Both the position numbers and the translations under genes were made by a program. The notes under the pieces are model-generated. The model ran no database searches, had not been told where the DNA came from, and saw only the letters and a program-made list of their open reading frames with translations. From Pseudomonadota bacterium (GTDB lineage Bacteria; Desulfobacterota; Desulfobulbia; Desulfobulbales; JAGXFP01), in assembly GCA_018814305.1 (NCBI GenBank), contig JAHJAA010000043.1, positions 62,001 through 126,000 on the forward strand: DNA of 64,000 nucleotides, given 5' to 3'. This document shows positions 32,247 to 41,463 of this stretch, in pieces. The number at the start of each line of letters is the position of its first letter. The stretch's first letter is position 1.

Positions 32247-35200
32247 TCAGGGAGCAGTAACTGTCCAGGTAACGCTGGTGGCATTGGCCGGTAATTGATA
32301 ACTGCCATTATCATACCGGGCTATAATCTGAACGGTGTGACTTCCTAGGCCTAGCCCGCTTAGCGCCAGTGGGGTGGTGATGGCTATATCGCCTGAGAAG
32401 CCGCCTCCATCCAAATTATATTGATAATGGGTAATATGACCGGCACATTCGGCCGGGCAGGCCACAGCCACATTTATTGAAGAATTACTGGTTGAAGATG
32501 AAGGATAGCCAGAAACGACGGGCCGGAAGGCTCGGAAGGCGGTGAGCCCGTCACTGTCTTCAACTGTAATTGGGTTGGCTGATATACTGGTTAAATCAAG
32601 GCCGATGCCATTATTCCCAAGTTGACCGGTAAAGTTTCTGCCACTGGCCTTCAGAGTTCCGTCACTGTTTAAAGTCAGGCTGTGATTGGTGCCGGCTGAA
32701 ATTCCGATAACCGCTGATCCCCATTGTGAAGTAAGGGTCGCAGTGGTTTTGTCGACGGTATTGCCGGTACCCAGAGCGCCACTGTTGTTATAGGTATCGA
32801 GATTTAGGGTTTCAGCATCATTGTCACCCCAGGAATAAACACTGTTCCCTACCTGGGCCAGGGTGTGATAGGAGCCTCCTGAGAGGTGCAGTACACCCGA
32901 TCCGCTGCCTAATCCACTGATACCCACAGGAACGGATTTATCACCGGCTGTGGTACCCAACTGCGAGACAGAATTGTCGCCCCAGGCCCATGAGGTCCCG
33001 TCATTTTGAAGGGCCAGGGAATAATTGCCACCGGCCTCAATGGCCGTAATGGATGCAAGGGTTGTGGGGGCAAGCTGGAACGGGACAAGGTTATTGGTCG
33101 GTTTATTGCCATCACCCAGCTGGCCGCTGTTGTTAAGGCCCCAGGTATGGACCAGGCCGGTGGAATCAAGGGCCAGGGAATGGTCTTGACCAGCGGCGAT
33201 AGCGGTGACCGTAACTCCGGATAAGGATCCGGCAGCCTGAACAGCGGCATAGGACTTGGAGTCACTGCCGCCGTTACCCAACTGTCCGGCCGAATTTTTA
33301 CCAAAACCCCAGACCGTCCCATCATCGAGCAGGGCCATGATATGGTAGCCTCCTGCCGAGGTCATCACGACATTGCCGGTGAGATTGGCTTGGTCGAGAG
33401 CGGATTGACTGCCGCCATCCAGATGATGCCCCAATTGATTCCGTTCGTTGGTACCACAGGTCCATAAGGTCCCGTCAGCCCTGACGATTGCCGTGTCGTT
33501 TTGTCCGGCGGCGATGGCCTTGGCCCTGGTGATATTCAACTGTCGCGGGAGGATTACGGGATCATTGCCGGTGGGAGTAATATCGAGCTGGCCGTAGCTG
33601 TTTGAGCCCCATCCCCAGACGGTCCCGTCATTGGACAGGACAAGGTTGTGGTAGTTGCCGGCCGAAATTTTCGGGGTGACGTAGTATGGGTCAACCAGAT
33701 CGACATTGATGACGCTTACGTCATCAGGATTAAGCCCATTATAATTGATATCAGTTGATAGAGCGGCAGATGTTTGGATCAGAAAGGTCTGATTGCCGTC
33801 AGCTAAGCTATCATCCACCCCGGTGACCGTGACCAATTGGTCGGTATTCCAGTTGGCTGCAGTAAAGGTCAGGGCGGCGGGACTGACCGTCCCTTCTGCG
33901 GTATTCATACTGAACAGCGCGATTGCCACATCGGCAGTGGGTTGGGTATTCAAGCGAACGGTAAAGGTCGCGGTTGTCCCTGCTTCATCGGTATTGCCGC
34001 TGATTGTTCCGACCGTGTATCCTGGGGTTTCATTGTCCACATTGATCACACTGACGTCGTTGGGGTCAAGACCATTATATGAGGCATCAGTGGAAACCGC
34101 TGCGGCGAGCTGGATCAGGAAGGTCTGGTTGCCGTCGGTAACAAGATCATCTACCCCGGTGACCGTGACCAGTTGATTGGTATTCCAGTTGCCTGCCGTA
34201 AAGGTCAGGGAAGAGGGGCTCACCGTTCCCTCGGTGGTATTGGAACTGCTTAACCCGATGGTGACATTTGCGGAGGGTTGGGTATTCAAGCGGACGGTAA
34301 AGGTCGCGGTCGTTCCGGTTTCATTGGTGTTTCCGCTGATTGTTCCCACCGTAAATCCAGGCGTTTCATTGTCCAGATTGGTGACCGTGACATCCGCTGG
34401 ATTTATCCCGTCGAAATTTGGATCGGGTGAAGAGGCCGGAGCCAGGATGATGGTATAGACCTGGCTGCCGTCAAGGACAAAGTCGTCCACCCCGGTAACT
34501 GTTACGACCTGACTGGAGTTCCAATTGGCCGTAGTCAATGTTAAAATTGTCGGAGAAACGGTTCCTTCCGCCAGATTGGAACTGGACAGGGTAATAGTCA
34601 CGTCGGCGGTTGGCTGGGAACCGAGTTTCACCGTGAAGGTGGCCGAGGTGCCGGCCTCACTGGTATTACCACTGATGGCACTGACCAGAATCGAGTAAAC
34701 CGGTGGTGGCGTGTTTACCACATCGAGGTTGAGGACCGATACATCAGCGGGATCCTGGCCGTCGTAGTTGATATCAGTTGAAACCGCGGGCGCAAGAACA
34801 ATGGTAAAGAGTTGGTCCCCATCGGTTATGGAGTCCGCTACCCCTTTAACAGTAACCGTCTGAGGGATGTTCCAGTCGGCTGAGGTGAAGATTAATTCCG
34901 CAGGAGTAACGCTCCCTTCACTGGGATCCGAACTGGAAAGCCCGATGATGACCTCAGCGGACGGCGCAACCGTGAGTTCTACGGTAAAGGTAGCAGTAGT
35001 CCCTGATTCATCGGTGTTACCACTGATCGGGCTGATGTTGAATCCGGCGGCATCGTTATCAATGTTGATCACCGTAACGTCTTCGGGATCCATCCCATTG
35101 TACAAGGGATCCGCCGAGGAGGCGGCTGCCAGGAGAATGGTATAGAGCTGGTTGCCGTCGGTTTGATCGTCATCGATCCCGGTGATGGTTACGGTATGTG

Positions 35201-36533
35201 GTGTTGACCAGTCGGAGCTGGTGAAGGTGAGACTGTCCGGTGCAACCGTCCCCTCGGCAGGATTGGAACTGGTTATTTCGATGGTGACACCGGCTGTGGG
35301 TTCCGAGGTCAGGACCACGGTAAAGACGGCGCTGGCCCCATTTTCATTGGTATTATTGCTGATCTTGCTGACGACTATTCCGACTGTATCATCATCGAGG
35401 TTGGTCAGGGCCAGGTCATTTGGATTGATCCCGTTGTAGTTGGGATCCGCTGAGCTTGCCGTGCCCAGCACGATGGAATAGAGCTGGGCGCCGTCCTGGA
35501 CATAATCATCGACTCCGGAGACGGTGACAGTCTGGGCTGTCCGCCAGGTATCGGCAGTAAAGGTCAGTAGGCTATGGGAAACGGTCCCTTCCGTGATATC
35601 GGAACTGGCCACGGTCAGATTGACCTCGGCGGTGGGTTCTGAGGCCAATCGTACCGTGAATTTCACGGTGGCTCCGGCCTCGCTGGTGTTTCCGATGAGG
35701 GTGGAAACCACAATCCCGGTGGCCTCATCATCTTCATTGATGACCACCACATCGTCGGGATCGAGGCCATTGTAGCGGCTGTCGGCGGAGGTCGTTGCCG
35801 AGAGGACGATGGTATAGGACTGATCCCCGTCGGCCAGATCATCGTCAACCCCGGTCACGGTGACGGTCTGGGCGGTGTCCCAGTTGTCGCTGGTAAAGGT
35901 GAGGGTGTCAGGGGAGGGCGTTCCCTCGGTGGCATCGTCACTGGAAAGACCAATGGTGACATCGGCAGAAGGTTGCGATGAAAGAGAGACAGTGAAGGTG
36001 GCGCTCTCGCCGGTTTCACTGGTTGTCCCGCTTATTTCAGAGACTAGAATTTTAGCAGAATCATTATCTTCATTGATCACGTTGACATCATCTGGGTCAA
36101 GACCATGATAGGCCGGATCCAGGGAAACGGCGATCGACAGAATAATGGTATAAACCTGATTGCCGTCCAGGGCCAGATCGTCGACGCCGGTAACGGTTAC
36201 GGTCTGAGCGGTTGCCCAGGACGTGGTGGTAAAGGTCAGGATGCTGGGACTGACCGTTCCCTCAGCAGTATTAGAACTGCTGAGCGCAATGGTCACATCA
36301 GCTGTGGGCTCGTTGCCCAGATGGATGGTAAAAGTGGCGGTCTTGCCCGATTCGCTGGTATTTCCAGAGAGAACCCCTACAACAAATGAGCCTTCAGAAA
36401 TTGGTGGCGGTAGGGTCGGGTCGTCATCCACTCCCTGTTTGCTCCCCCCTCCACCGCAGGCCGTGAGCAGCGGGATAAGAAAGCAAAGCAACAGCATGGT
36501 TTTAAGGGTTTGACGTGCAATGGTAAGCATCAT
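32247..36533 (-). CDS. Lipoprotein with eight Calx-beta-like repeats and an RCC1-type propeller
   Basis: A 1428-residue secreted protein. The N-terminal signal ends with a lipobox LLTAC, then a low-complexity linker. Eight repeats of about 112 residues follow, each with SGNTSE-like start, ATFTV, an EGTVSP-LTFT segment, TVTVTGVDD and a NGLDPDDV-type end, resembling Calx-beta/adhesin repeats with acidic Asp clusters that may bind calcium. Then about seven RCC1-like blades (for example AAGQDHSLALDSTG with WGxNxxGQLG) build a predicted propeller, and a C-terminal beta domain of about 95 residues ends the protein. The start at M5 (36533) has AGAGGATAT upstream. It is probably a cell-surface adhesin or recognition protein. 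Confidence 0.8.
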   Translation of the reverse strand: MMLTIARQTLKTMLLLCFLIPLLTACGGGGSKQGVDDDPTLPPPISEGSFVVGVLSGNTSESGKTATFTIHLGNEPTADVTIALSSSNTAEGTVSPSILTFTTTSWATAQTVTVTGVDDLALDGNQVYTIILSIAVSLDPAYHGLDPDDVNVINEDNDSAKILVSEISGTTSETGESATFTVSLSSQPSADVTIGLSSDDATEGTPSPDTLTFTSDNWDTAQTVTVTGVDDDLADGDQSYTIVLSATTSADSRYNGLDPDDVVVINEDDEATGIVVSTLIGNTSEAGATVKFTVRLASEPTAEVNLTVASSDITEGTVSHSLLTFTADTWRTAQTVTVSGVDDYVQDGAQLYSIVLGTASSADPNYNGINPNDLALTNLDDDTVGIVVSKISNNTNENGASAVFTVVLTSEPTAGVTIEITSSNPAEGTVAPDSLTFTSSDWSTPHTVTITGIDDDQTDGNQLYTILLAAASSADPLYNGMDPEDVTVINIDNDAAGFNISPISGNTDESGTTATFTVELTVAPSAEVIIGLSSSDPSEGSVTPAELIFTSADWNIPQTVTVKGVADSITDGDQLFTIVLAPAVSTDINYDGQDPADVSVLNLDVVNTPPPVYSILVSAISGNTSEAGTSATFTVKLGSQPTADVTITLSSSNLAEGTVSPTILTLTTANWNSSQVVTVTGVDDFVLDGSQVYTIILAPASSPDPNFDGINPADVTVTNLDNETPGFTVGTISGNTNETGTTATFTVRLNTQPSANVTIGLSSSNTTEGTVSPSSLTFTAGNWNTNQLVTVTGVDDLVTDGNQTFLIQLAAAVSTDASYNGLDPNDVSVINVDNETPGYTVGTISGNTDEAGTTATFTVRLNTQPTADVAIALFSMNTAEGTVSPAALTFTAANWNTDQLVTVTGVDDSLADGNQTFLIQTSAALSTDINYNGLNPDDVSVINVDLVDPYYVTPKISAGNYHNLVLSNDGTVWGWGSNSYGQLDITPTGNDPVILPRQLNITRAKAIAAGQNDTAIVRADGTLWTCGTNERNQLGHHLDGGSQSALDQANLTGNVVMTSAGGYHIMALLDDGTVWGFGKNSAGQLGNGGSDSKSYAAVQAAGSLSGVTVTAIAAGQDHSLALDSTGLVHTWGLNNSGQLGDGNKPTNNLVPFQLAPTTLASITAIEAGGNYSLALQNDGTSWAWGDNSVSQLGTTAGDKSVPVGISGLGSGSGVLHLSGGSYHTLAQVGNSVYSWGDNDAETLNLDTYNNSGALGTGNTVDKTTATLTSQWGSAVIGISAGTNHSLTLNSDGTLKASGRNFTGQLGNNGIGLDLTSISANPITVEDSDGLTAFRAFRPVVSGYPSSSTSNSSINVAVACPAECAGHITHYQYNLDGGGFSGDIAITTPLALSGLGLGSHTVQIIARYDNGSYQLPANATSVTWTVTAP

Positions 36534-36790
36534 ATATCCTCTCATAAAAAGGGCTTGGGATGATTTCGTTATGGGTTAAGACAATAAGTATTGTATCAGA
36601 ATTTGTCTTGAAAAAGCAAGTTGAGTGGCGGGATTCAAGCCACCCTCCTGCCTCGATGGGGAGGAAGAAGAGGACGTTTTTCTTCGCTGGATAGGTCTGA
36701 GGGTAGACCATTTTCTTTATTTGTTGCAAAATAGAGGGGTAAGTGCTAATTAATTTCCTCTTGAAATATTTAATCTATGCCAATAAAAGA

Positions 36791-36867
36791 GTGCCCGTAG
36801 CTCAGTTGGATAGAGCAACGGCCTTCTAAGCCGTTGGCCACAGGTTCGAATCCTGTCGGGCGCACCA
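36791..36867 (+). tRNA. tRNA-Arg (anticodon TCT)
   Basis: A 77-nt cloverleaf including encoded CCA. Acceptor arms GTGCCCG / CGGGCGC pair (one T-G wobble), the D arm holds AGCTCAGTTGGA, the anticodon stem ACGGC / GCCGT encloses CTTCTAA (anticodon TCT), and the T arm carries GGTTCGAATCC. It reads AGA codons. The 3' end is repeated 842 bp downstream around a toxin-antitoxin pair. Confidence 0.97.
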
Positions 36868-36881
36868 GCAAATGAAAAGGG
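36832..36881 (+). repeat. attL-like direct repeat (tRNA 3' end), copy 1
   Basis: Fifty bp covering the 3' half of the tRNA-Arg plus 14 nt downstream, identical to 37674-37723. The tRNA copy is the intact gene; the second copy is an orphan 3' end. Together they resemble the attachment-site repeats left by site-specific insertion into a tRNA gene. Confidence 0.9.
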
Positions 36882-36911
36882 AATCGGCATTTTTGCCGGT
36901 TCCCTTTTTTT
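36875..36911 (+). terminator. Terminator downstream of tRNA-Arg
   Basis: Stem AAAAGGGAA.CGGC / GCCG.TTCCCTTTT with a T-run; its counterpart behind the second repeat has changed stem bases but still pairs. Confidence 0.88.
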
Positions 36912-37056
36912 ATGGTCCCTCTGCGGTCCGTCACCGGGAAATCCGCATGTGCAAACGGGATTTCAGGGTCAGATTCAGGGCCCGACCCGGTCTCATTTAA
37001 GTGATCTCCAGCCCCGAGATGGATCAAAATAAACGGTGCGGGGGCTTCTCCCTTGT

Positions 37057-37350
37057 TCACGCGGGAGAAGGATTCCAGTCTTCATGCCCATGACGAACAC
37101 GGATAATTAAGATGTCTTTGTTCTGTTCAGCACGATAGATAATCAGATGAGCTCCATACGGATGGACCCTGACTGGCGGGGAGATTTCGCGACGTTCGTG
37201 GGCAAGTTCCGGGTTTTGTGTAAGGAGCTGAAAAACCTTTTCCATACCGTCATGATATCGTTCAGCCTGTTCGATCCCAAAAAGCCGAAGCCCTTCGTGA
37301 AAAATAGCAATGATATCATCAGTAGCCTTGTTGGTCAGCCGGTATGCCAT
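37057..37350 (-). CDS. parE: ParE-family toxin
   Basis: Type II toxin of 97 residues with the RelE/ParE fold: N-terminal ATDDIIAIFHEGLRLFG helix, a middle helix pair with KVFQLLTQNPELAHERREI, and the C-terminal strands VHPYGAHLIIYRAEQNKDILIIRVRHGHEDW. ParE toxins generally act on DNA gyrase. It starts 5 bp behind the antitoxin stop, in the usual antitoxin-toxin order, and lies inside the 842-bp repeat-flanked insert. Confidence 0.9.
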   Translation of the reverse strand: MAYRLTNKATDDIIAIFHEGLRLFGIEQAERYHDGMEKVFQLLTQNPELAHERREISPPVRVHPYGAHLIIYRAEQNKDILIIRVRHGHEDWNPSPA

Positions 37351-37355
37351 ATCAT

Positions 37356-37598
37356 TTATTTCGAGTCAAAGACAGAGGGTGCCTCGTGGCGAATGTCATC
37401 CATGGTACGATCGCTTTCCCCGCTTTCCAACCCTGCCGTAACCATCCGCTGCATCACTGCAATTTTGGCCGTCCTTTCCTGATCCTGCCGGATCAAATCC
37501 CGGACATAGTCACTGGCATTGCTGTACCGTCCCGACTTTGTCTGACTTTCGACCCAGATTTTCATTGGGTCGGGCAGGGAAACGTTCATTGTTGCCAT
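37356..37598 (-). CDS. parD: ParD-family antitoxin
   Basis: Antitoxin of 80 residues: an N-terminal ribbon-helix-helix (MNVSLPDPMKIWVESQTKSG, YSNASDYVRDLIRQDQ) and a C-terminal toxin-binding tail. AAGGAGGT precedes the ATG. The 23-bp inverted repeat just upstream (37625-37647) is a plausible autoregulatory operator. Confidence 0.9.
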   Translation of the reverse strand: MATMNVSLPDPMKIWVESQTKSGRYSNASDYVRDLIRQDQERTAKIAVMQRMVTAGLESGESDRTMDDIRHEAPSVFDSK

Positions 37599-37624
37599 GT
37601 TGGACCTCCTTACCTAATGTACCT

Positions 37625-37647
37625 ATTATGACAAAGTTTGCCATAAT
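37625..37647 (-). promoter_or_regulatory. Candidate ParD operator
   Basis: Arms ATTATG / CATAAT separated by 11 nt, located 27-49 bp upstream of parD. This fits the binding site of an RHH repressor, but binding is not shown. Confidence 0.5.
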
Positions 37648-37673
37648 GTCATGGTTAAATTTTTTGACCACGG

Positions 37674-37723
37674 CGTTGGCCACAGGTTCGAATCCTGTCG
37701 GGCGCACCAGCAAATGAAAAGGG
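37674..37723 (+). repeat. attR-like direct repeat (orphan tRNA 3' end), copy 2
   Basis: Fifty bp identical to 36832-36881 but without the 5' part of a tRNA, so it cannot fold as a tRNA. It bounds the ParDE insert on the right and is followed by a diverged copy of the tRNA terminator. Confidence 0.9.
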
Positions 37724-37758
37724 GAGTCGGTTATTTTGCCGAGTCCCCTTTTTTTTTT
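37716..37758 (+). terminator. Terminator behind the orphan tRNA end
   Basis: Stem AAAAGGGGA.TCGG / CCGA.TCCCCTTTT followed by ten or more T residues; a variant of the terminator at 36875-36911, with paired base changes in the stem. Confidence 0.88.
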
Positions 37759-37774: not shown

Positions 37775-38974
37775 CTACTCTTTGCTCATATTTCCGTTTT
37801 CGGCAATAACGACCTGCATTTCGCCATGCTTTTGTTCGAGGGTTTCCCGGTCCGGGGAGAGTCCGTTGAAGGAATTGTAGGCTGTTTCCTCTCGGGCATC
37901 GATCTCCTGGATCTCAGCAAAGATTTTTCTGGCCTTCTCCTTCCCTTTGGTGGGGAGCCATAAGTACTGGTTGCTGGCGATATATTGGGCGTAATCGTTT
38001 GATATGCTCTGACGCAGGAGGAAAAAATCGAAAAATCGAGCATGGACGGAACTGATCTCCTGGTCTATTTCGATTTGCAACTCGGTGAGCTTTTTCTCCA
38101 GAGTGACGATTTTTTTCTGCTGTCTGGCCAGTTCCTGTTGTTTTTTGTCGCCTTCCGGGATTACCCTGTTTCGTTCCAGGTTGAGCTCTTCTTCAATTTT
38201 GGTAACCGTGTTCCGACTATCCTGGATCCCAGACACTACCTTGTCAATGGCCTTGGCCACATCTTTGGCCAGCTCTAAATCCTCCTCATAGCGGGGAGGA
38301 TGCGGGAAACTGAAGCCGAAATCAATTTTCAGCACTTCCGCTGGTTCGTTGATATTAGAGTCGGGTCCCGGGGTGATCAAGGTGCCCTCGAAACCGTATC
38401 TTTTGACGTCGCTTTCTTTATACTCGCCGCCGTTTACGACCAGATAGCGGACTCCCCCCTCGGGAGGGTTGAGCAGATAGATGAAATCAAATTCATGGTC
38501 CGCGCTGCCCACATTATCATAGGCAATGATGGGCCAGAATTCATTTTCTTCACCTTCGTTCGTGGAAATGATTTCAGCCCGACCCATGGAGTAAGTAGTT
38601 TTGTCAGTGTAGAGATCAATGAGAAAAGGGGTGTCCGGAGGGGTGCCTAAGGCCTTGCCTCGTAGCGACAGGGTTGGAACTTCACTATCCGTATCCTTAA
38701 CCGCAGGGCGTTCCTTCCTCGGGAGCAGGCTAAGGTGCTCTTCGGGAAACTCGGTCCGTTTCTCGGTGGTGATTCGGTCCAAGGCGAGTCTATCAACTAC
38801 AGGAATGCCGGCGGCAGTACTTCCGCCCCCCAAAAAGTTGGGGAGATTGGGCAGACCGGTTGCAGCGCATCCTGAGCAGATGATGAGCAAGGTCCCGACC
38901 AGGCCAAGTTGGGTTCGGCGATAATGGTTGATGAAACGAAGGGGATTCCATTGAAAGAAACTGAAATAATTCAT
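37775..38974 (-). CDS. Coiled-coil lipoprotein, unknown function
   Basis: A 399-residue protein with a basic N-terminus, a hydrophobic segment and a lipobox-like IICSGC near residue 34, so membrane-anchored outside the cytoplasm. The mid part (about 110-220) is a beta-rich domain without a known signature. Residues about 230-345 are a charged helical region with heptad-like repeats (AKAIDKVVSGIQDSR, KKIVTLEKKLTELQIEIDQEI) predicted to form a coiled coil. ATG 38974 with GGGAGA upstream is chosen over the start 15 codons earlier. I do not recognise a family. Confidence 0.7.
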   Translation of the reverse strand: MNYFSFFQWNPLRFINHYRRTQLGLVGTLLIICSGCAATGLPNLPNFLGGGSTAAGIPVVDRLALDRITTEKRTEFPEEHLSLLPRKERPAVKDTDSEVPTLSLRGKALGTPPDTPFLIDLYTDKTTYSMGRAEIISTNEGEENEFWPIIAYDNVGSADHEFDFIYLLNPPEGGVRYLVVNGGEYKESDVKRYGFEGTLITPGPDSNINEPAEVLKIDFGFSFPHPPRYEEDLELAKDVAKAIDKVVSGIQDSRNTVTKIEEELNLERNRVIPEGDKKQQELARQQKKIVTLEKKLTELQIEIDQEISSVHARFFDFFLLRQSISNDYAQYIASNQYLWLPTKGKEKARKIFAEIQEIDAREETAYNSFNGLSPDRETLEQKHGEMQVVIAENGNMSKE

Positions 38975-39283
38975 TGAGAGTCTCCCGGGTAGGTTTTTTG
39001 ACGATTTCCCTGCCCCCAAGGGCTTTTATAGGGCAGCGATCATGCCCTTGGCAAGCCCACGGGTGGAAAAGGGAGTCAAGGAGGGAAATAATTTTGAGTA
39101 TCATAGCATATTCGATTGGCAATATGGCAGGTTTTGTCAGGTGAAAAAATGTTTTTCTGGTCGAGGAAAGTTTGAGGTGATGGCCGCTGACTGACCGGGA
39201 GTAATGATAGGTATCGTTCTTGACTCGACATCATGGAACCGATATGATTTTCGGAGAATAGTTTTTTGAAAGGGGTTTTTTGA

Positions 39284-40374: not shown

Positions 40375-41463
40375 GTGACGAAAACAGTACTTTTACTGTT
40401 GATAAGTCTGGTATTGCTCGTTGCTATTTCTGCGGTTATTGCCGGCAATAAAGAGGGAGGTTCGAGGATGGCATCGGAAAATGAACAGGTAATGAACAAT
40501 GAACTTCAAAAGGCAACCTTTGCCGGCGGCTGTTTCTGGTGTATGGAAAAACCCTTTGAGAAACTCGACGGGGTGATTTCGGTGACTTCTGGGTATAGCG
40601 CCGGCAGGACGGAAAATCCCAACTATGATAATTATGCCGCCGGTGGTCATGTGGAGGTGGTTGAGATCCTCTTTGATCCGTCTCGGATCACCTATTCCGA
40701 GTTGCTGCAGGTCTTCTGGCGCCAGGTTGATCCTACAGATGAAGGAGGGCAGTTTGTTGATCGTGGTCATGCCTATACCACGGCAATTTATTATCACGAC
40801 GAGGCGCAGCGGCAGGCGGCTGAAGCGTCCAAGGCGGAATTAACCGCCCGCGGTTTCTTCAATAAACCCCTGGTAACCCCGATTCTCCCGGTCTCGACCT
40901 TCTATCCGGCTGAGGAGTATCATCAGGACTATTATAAAAAGAATCCTCTCCGATATAAGTATTATCGGGGCAACTCCGGGCGAGATCGCTTCCTGGATAC
41001 GGTCTGGGGTGCGGATCGTGAGGCCCATGGGGTTCTGGATAAGGCGGATTTGAAAAAACGTTTGACCGATCTGCAGTATCAGGTCACCCAGGAAGAGGGT
41101 ACTGAGCCACCCTTTCGGAATGAATACTGGGACAATAAGCAGCCTGGGATCTACGTCGATATCGTCTCCGGCGAACCGCTCTTCAGTTCACTGGATAAAT
41201 ATGATTCTAAAACCGGCTGGCCCAGTTTTACCCGGCCGCTGGTCCCGGAAAATATCGTGGAAAAAACAGATCGCCGGTTGTTCTCGGTCCGGACCGAAGT
41301 GAGGAGTAAAAAGGCCGACTCTCACTTGGGGCATGTCTTTAACGATGGTCCTCAACCCACCGGGCTGCGCTACTGTATGAATTCTGCCGCCATGCGGTTT
41401 GTAGCGGTGGCGGATCTGGAGAAAGAGGGTTATGGCGAGTTCGTACTATTATTCAGCGAATAG
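40375..41463 (+). CDS. msrAB: Exported MsrA-MsrB methionine sulfoxide reductase fusion
   Basis: Bifunctional repair enzyme of 362 residues for both S- and R-Met-O. An N-terminal hydrophobic signal ([19 protein letters not shown]) suggests export. MsrA follows with [13 protein letters not shown] (catalytic Cys about 54) and the MsrA domain; MsrB has [17 protein letters not shown] and the catalytic Cys in [11 protein letters not shown]. The paired zinc CxxC motifs of many MsrB proteins are absent. Start GTG 40375 has GGAGGG upstream. The gene is ended by a strong terminator and probably protects envelope proteins. Confidence 0.93.

Follow-up and report, generated by a model that had tools for sequence, protein, structure and literature searches.

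How does a perfect copy of the 3′ end of a tRNA gene come to lie downstream of the intact gene, with one pair of genes and little else between the two? The question is posed by tRNA-Arg(TCT) at 36791-36867 (+), the only tRNA gene that ARAGORN identifies in the window, the whole 64,000-nt stretch of DNA analysed here. Its sequence from position 42 up to 14 nt beyond the CCA constitutes the left copy of a direct repeat (36832-36881, +), and the right copy (37674-37723, +), downstream and in the same orientation, is identical to it at all 50 of 50 positions, with 842 bp from start to start. Chance is excluded as the origin of a perfect 50-bp repeat of a tRNA 3′ end. Beyond it a weaker similarity extends through both of the terminators that follow the copies (82 columns, 91.5%), and it is to the terminators that the mismatches are confined. 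The right copy is without tRNA positions 33-41, there being unrelated bases at the place expected for the anticodon loop. The assembly of the source genome, in 92 contigs, is incomplete (96.7% complete), and the genomes with which it is compared are from other genera of the same family, order and class.

Between the repeats parE and parD are the only credible genes. The predicted ParE toxin (97 aa; 37057-37350, −) matches the full Pfam profile PF05016 (ParE_toxin) at 5.2e-18 and also ParE proteins in the PDB, and the predicted ParD antitoxin (80 aa; 37356-37598, −), encoded 5 nt upstream of parE, matches Pfam PF03693 (2.4e-7) and TIGR02606 (5.4e-21, above its cut-off). On these matches an antitoxin of the ParD family precedes a toxin of the ParE family in one operon; the gene order, the short gap, the Pfam matches and the solved relatives of ParE are all shared with known ParDE type II toxin-antitoxin (TA) systems, and nothing unusual was seen in this predicted pair. 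No integrase is encoded between the repeats, every ORF inside being too short for one. The first-pass annotation had described perfect 50-bp repeats of the tRNA 3′ end, 842 bp apart, around parDE with no integrase, and both observations are borne out.

The nearest parDE homologue found in the class is in a genome related at the level of order (G028, locus L009), with identity of 67% for ParE and 70% for ParD. Against it dN is about 0.24 and dS about 2.5-2.7, the latter being saturated and the ratio, near 0.1, a rough one. As dN is well under the saturated dS, parDE descends from a functional lineage, and the intact pair is shown, as judged from substitution rates, to have been under purifying selection in the past. 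A putative parDE promoter and operator (37626-37661, −) aligns with a similar stretch upstream of the L009 homologue. Similarity to L009 stops about 12 bp short of the right repeat, and so parDE, together with its promoter region, directly adjoins the right end. The source genome has no second copy of the unit, and no ParE match was found among phages. In viral contigs the tRNA trailer pattern is absent and none of six ParD relatives has flanking tRNA repeats; the ParE relatives on plasmids are all below 60% identity; and contigs of named genomes searched with ParE and the tRNA trailer yielded no relative. None of the other parDE homologues examined is flanked by tRNA-end repeats.

The reading preferred here, to which we give a probability of roughly three in four, is that the locus is the attL-parDE-attR remnant of an element that used a tyrosine integrase to enter tRNA-Arg(TCT) and that was cut down by internal deletion. 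The integrase would have put the integrative element into the 3′ part of the gene, with the element's copy restoring the tRNA and the native 3′ end being displaced 842 bp downstream. Insertion by a tyrosine integrase has as its standard signature a restored tRNA gene and a 3′ fragment displaced downstream without change of orientation; Islander relies on this signature (PMC4383910), and one of this type is present here. The internal deletion would have left the left end (the tRNA 3′ half, a terminator and arm sites), parDE, and a right end comprising the displaced native tRNA 3′ end and the native terminator. The labile ParD would neutralise ParE, the operon probably being autorepressed via 37626-37661, and parDE was most likely kept since, as with addiction modules, its loss would cost the cell. 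Integrase action, internal deletion and addiction as the reason for survival are what we infer to lie behind the present arrangement.

In relatives the use of tRNA-Arg(TCT) as an insertion hotspot is shown by several arrangements, keeping in mind that relatives were chosen by best match and that the counts are not rates. In G008 the gene carries an element of 18 kb whose far end encodes an integrase, an integrase gene adjoins the tRNA in G026 and G020, a tRNA fragment lies about 25 kb downstream in G031, and half-tRNA fragments are on other contigs in G025, G035, G037 and G021, that of G021 having been compared only with a tRNA-Arg(TCG) gene. In relatives, the displaced fragments that were measured begin within the anticodon loop or ahead of it and hold tRNA positions 33-41, and the displaced fragment of an integrase-less island at the source genome's own tRNA-Thr(CGT) starts there as well. 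Unlike those of the relatives, the fragment here starts at position 42, which leaves the type of crossover unproven and counts against the remnant reading. The T-loop is a known crossover sublocation (PMC1762012, PMC4383910), and crossover in its region is common, accounting for 1836 of 3919 islands (PMC4383910). Either the crossover was in the T-loop or the deletion that brought parDE to the right end also took the core, and the second is favoured. Removal of the core in this manner would make excision unlikely, and the site is probably locked, the right copy being without the anticodon-loop core.

The tRNA-Thr(CGT) locus (L132, G000:C7:67500-87400, with the tRNA at 120-194) has a 7-kb interval between the gene and a displaced half-tRNA (92.5%) that has its own terminator; the interval encodes a caspase-domain/TPR protein and a laminin-G-like protein and has a match, though weak, of the IS200 type; among the matches listed for it there is no integrase. 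Behind the tRNA-Arg(TCT) of one relative (L094, G025:C53:1-400) a different tRNA is represented by its truncated 3′ half (AAGGTCAAAGGTTCAAATCCTTTCCCCGCTACCA), which may mark the end of a second island arranged in tandem.

The intrinsic terminator behind the left copy (36874-36909, +; fold −25.7 kcal/mol) would be element-derived and that behind the right copy (37716-37753, +; −25.2 kcal/mol forward and −19.1 kcal/mol in reverse) native. The right one could also serve a convergent gene (37775-39019, −), for which the other genomes of the family gave no match and which was met with outside it in just two genomes, both from other families. The comparison accordingly yields no empty site, a point against the remnant reading. 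The two terminators differ mostly at paired positions with the pairing preserved, just as the first-pass annotation had it, and from this it had gone on to propose that the second site is an old copy held by compensatory changes. The relatives point elsewhere: at distal ends their displaced half-tRNA mostly has its own terminator, unlike in sequence to the one behind the intact tRNA, so that two unlike terminators, one element-borne and one native, are an ordinary outcome of insertion, and the second terminator here would most simply be the displaced native one. A compensated old copy, furthermore, predicts that the half-tRNA decays first, whereas the functionless half-tRNA is unchanged and it is the terminators that differ. 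Trailer and terminator of the two copies are more alike than is usual for such pairs in relatives, and this counts against the remnant reading; the closeness would be explained if the element last lived in a near relative.

Just past the left terminator, at +47 after the tRNA, is an arm-like pair of direct repeats, GGTCCCTC and GGTCCGTC (36914-36932, +), whose starts are 11 apart. A pair as good is found in 0.3% of shuffles and at 0.7% of window positions; taken singly it is a weak motif, to be set against the remnant reading. The same layout, with unrelated sequence, recurs behind the Lys(CTT), Phe(GAA), Thr(CGT), Arg(ACG) and Glu(CTC) tRNAs of the same genome. With this one included, 6 of its 43 tRNAs, read by region (mostly 2-20 kb downstream and less at contig ends), have the layout, against a background of ~2% per site. 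An exact-6-mer test over a wider stretch, with spacings of 10-13, detected a pair at 11 of 21 tRNA-Arg(TCT) loci where about 2 were expected (10% in control windows), the window's own match in that test being TTCAGG and not the GGTCC pair. Position and repetition suggest that the arm-like pairs are integrase arm sites. Among the 258 genomes of the class, the exact GGTCC arm and its flanks are shared by just 2, the source genome (G000) and G004 of the same family, behind tRNA-Arg(TCT) in both, and the G004 contig stops 103 nt past that tRNA. Neither the source genome nor the 258 class genomes yielded a complete parental element with GGTCC arms, which also counts against the remnant reading. The recurrence of a pair at +47 with 11-bp spacing behind tRNA terminators could help in finding erased islands. 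In G000, the direct-repeat pairs behind tRNA-Lys, Phe, Arg(ACG) and Glu (L119, L120, L138 and L141), 11-12 bp apart and at about +47 to +55, are possible scars of lost islands; no clear displaced fragment was seen within 8-20 kb downstream of these four.

The parDE unit might instead be a mini-element, non-autonomous but still mobile, with the integrase of another element moving it in trans at intact att sites. The perfect repeat covers the T-loop, where crossover is known to occur (PMC1762012, PMC4383910), and the genome has several tyrosine recombinases, two of which adjoin tRNA-Ala and tRNA-Leu. It is unlikely, however, given that the unit is present in a single genomic copy, that no tRNA-end repeats flank the other homologues examined, that no integrase is linked to the GGTCC arms and that the anticodon-loop core, held by the fragments of relatives and of the genome's own tRNA-Thr island, is absent from the right copy. 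Quite improbable, too, is the fuller version in which a sub-kilobase parDE element hops between tRNA sites as a unit on borrowed integrases and is a minimal non-autonomous integrative element; if true, such units fall outside any catalogue for which an integrase and a length of 2 kb or more are required. Homology that extends over trailer and terminator is also what would result from tandem duplication of tRNA-Arg(TCT), with decay of the second copy and later insertion of parDE between the copies. Relatives with a second full tRNA-Arg(TCT) at this place were what the first-pass annotation had said would speak against an insertion; in the stretch read downstream none of 20 loci, 19 of them in relatives, has one. 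The absence of a full tandem from every relative read makes duplication highly improbable, as do a functionless half that is unchanged though the terminators differ, an arm-like pair and a hotspot history that it leaves unexplained, and the second event that parDE requires.

Small TA cassettes occur in integrons, and an integron-like cassette had been offered by the earlier annotation next to its other suggestion, an insertion at a tRNA, since reduced to a remnant that has TA genes only and no integrase. The latter is retained here; the former, a gene cassette inserted into the tRNA at a secondary site, is scarcely plausible. The order-level homologue in L009 is near two attC-like repeats, but in the stretch read its parDE is not itself bounded by them. 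A reading of 36868-37673 disclosed no attC-like hairpin beside parDE or at either edge, and the edges consist of tRNA att-type repeats with the arm-like pair, the 50-bp repeats far exceeding an integron core site. The attC-like repeats of G028 (L009:172-258 and 659-745) are upstream of the parDE homologue with a spacing of 487, end in GTCGTTGG, and look like a small integron cassette array.

With the eroded integrative element as the preferred reading, the scar is of a type already known, and what is unusual is mainly its tiny size and a TA pair as its sole content. CIMEs are decayed elements of 1.2-13 kb that keep both att sites and are without recombination or transfer genes, and the gene-free microCIMEs are 130-220 bp (PMC5704250, PMC7563491). 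The locus resembles a CIME in its attL/attR-type flanks, the 50-bp tRNA repeat and the arm-like pair, and in having no integrase or transfer genes. It differs in being about 0.84 kb, between both classes in size, in having exactly one TA operon standing alone and in a right att core that may be damaged, positions 33-41 being absent from it and held by the fragments of relatives. By its flanks and gene content it may be called CIME-like; full membership would also take descent from an ICE or IME and a working att core. With the tDNA islands of Islander it shares a restored tRNA gene followed downstream by a displaced 3′ fragment of like orientation, but it is integrase-less and under 2 kb, and both are grounds for rejection there: the Islander filters require an integrase gene and a length of 2-200 kb (PMC4383910), and such remnants are therefore absent from its catalogue.

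No account of a TA-only, sub-kilobase tRNA island surfaced in the literature searched. The locus offers a clean example of an endpoint in the erosion of integrative elements, att ends with an addiction module, and agrees with the idea of TA pairs as resistant to deletion. It also points to integrase-less islands under 2 kb as a blind spot of island catalogues, and the frequency of TA-only tRNA remnants below 2 kb is of interest as Islander filters them out. Elsewhere in the window, 32247-36545 (−) encodes a lipoprotein-like protein of 1432 aa in which an RCC1 propeller comes after about eight repeats of Calx-beta type, and 40375-41463 (+) encodes, judged by translation only, a probable methionine sulfoxide reductase A-B fusion.
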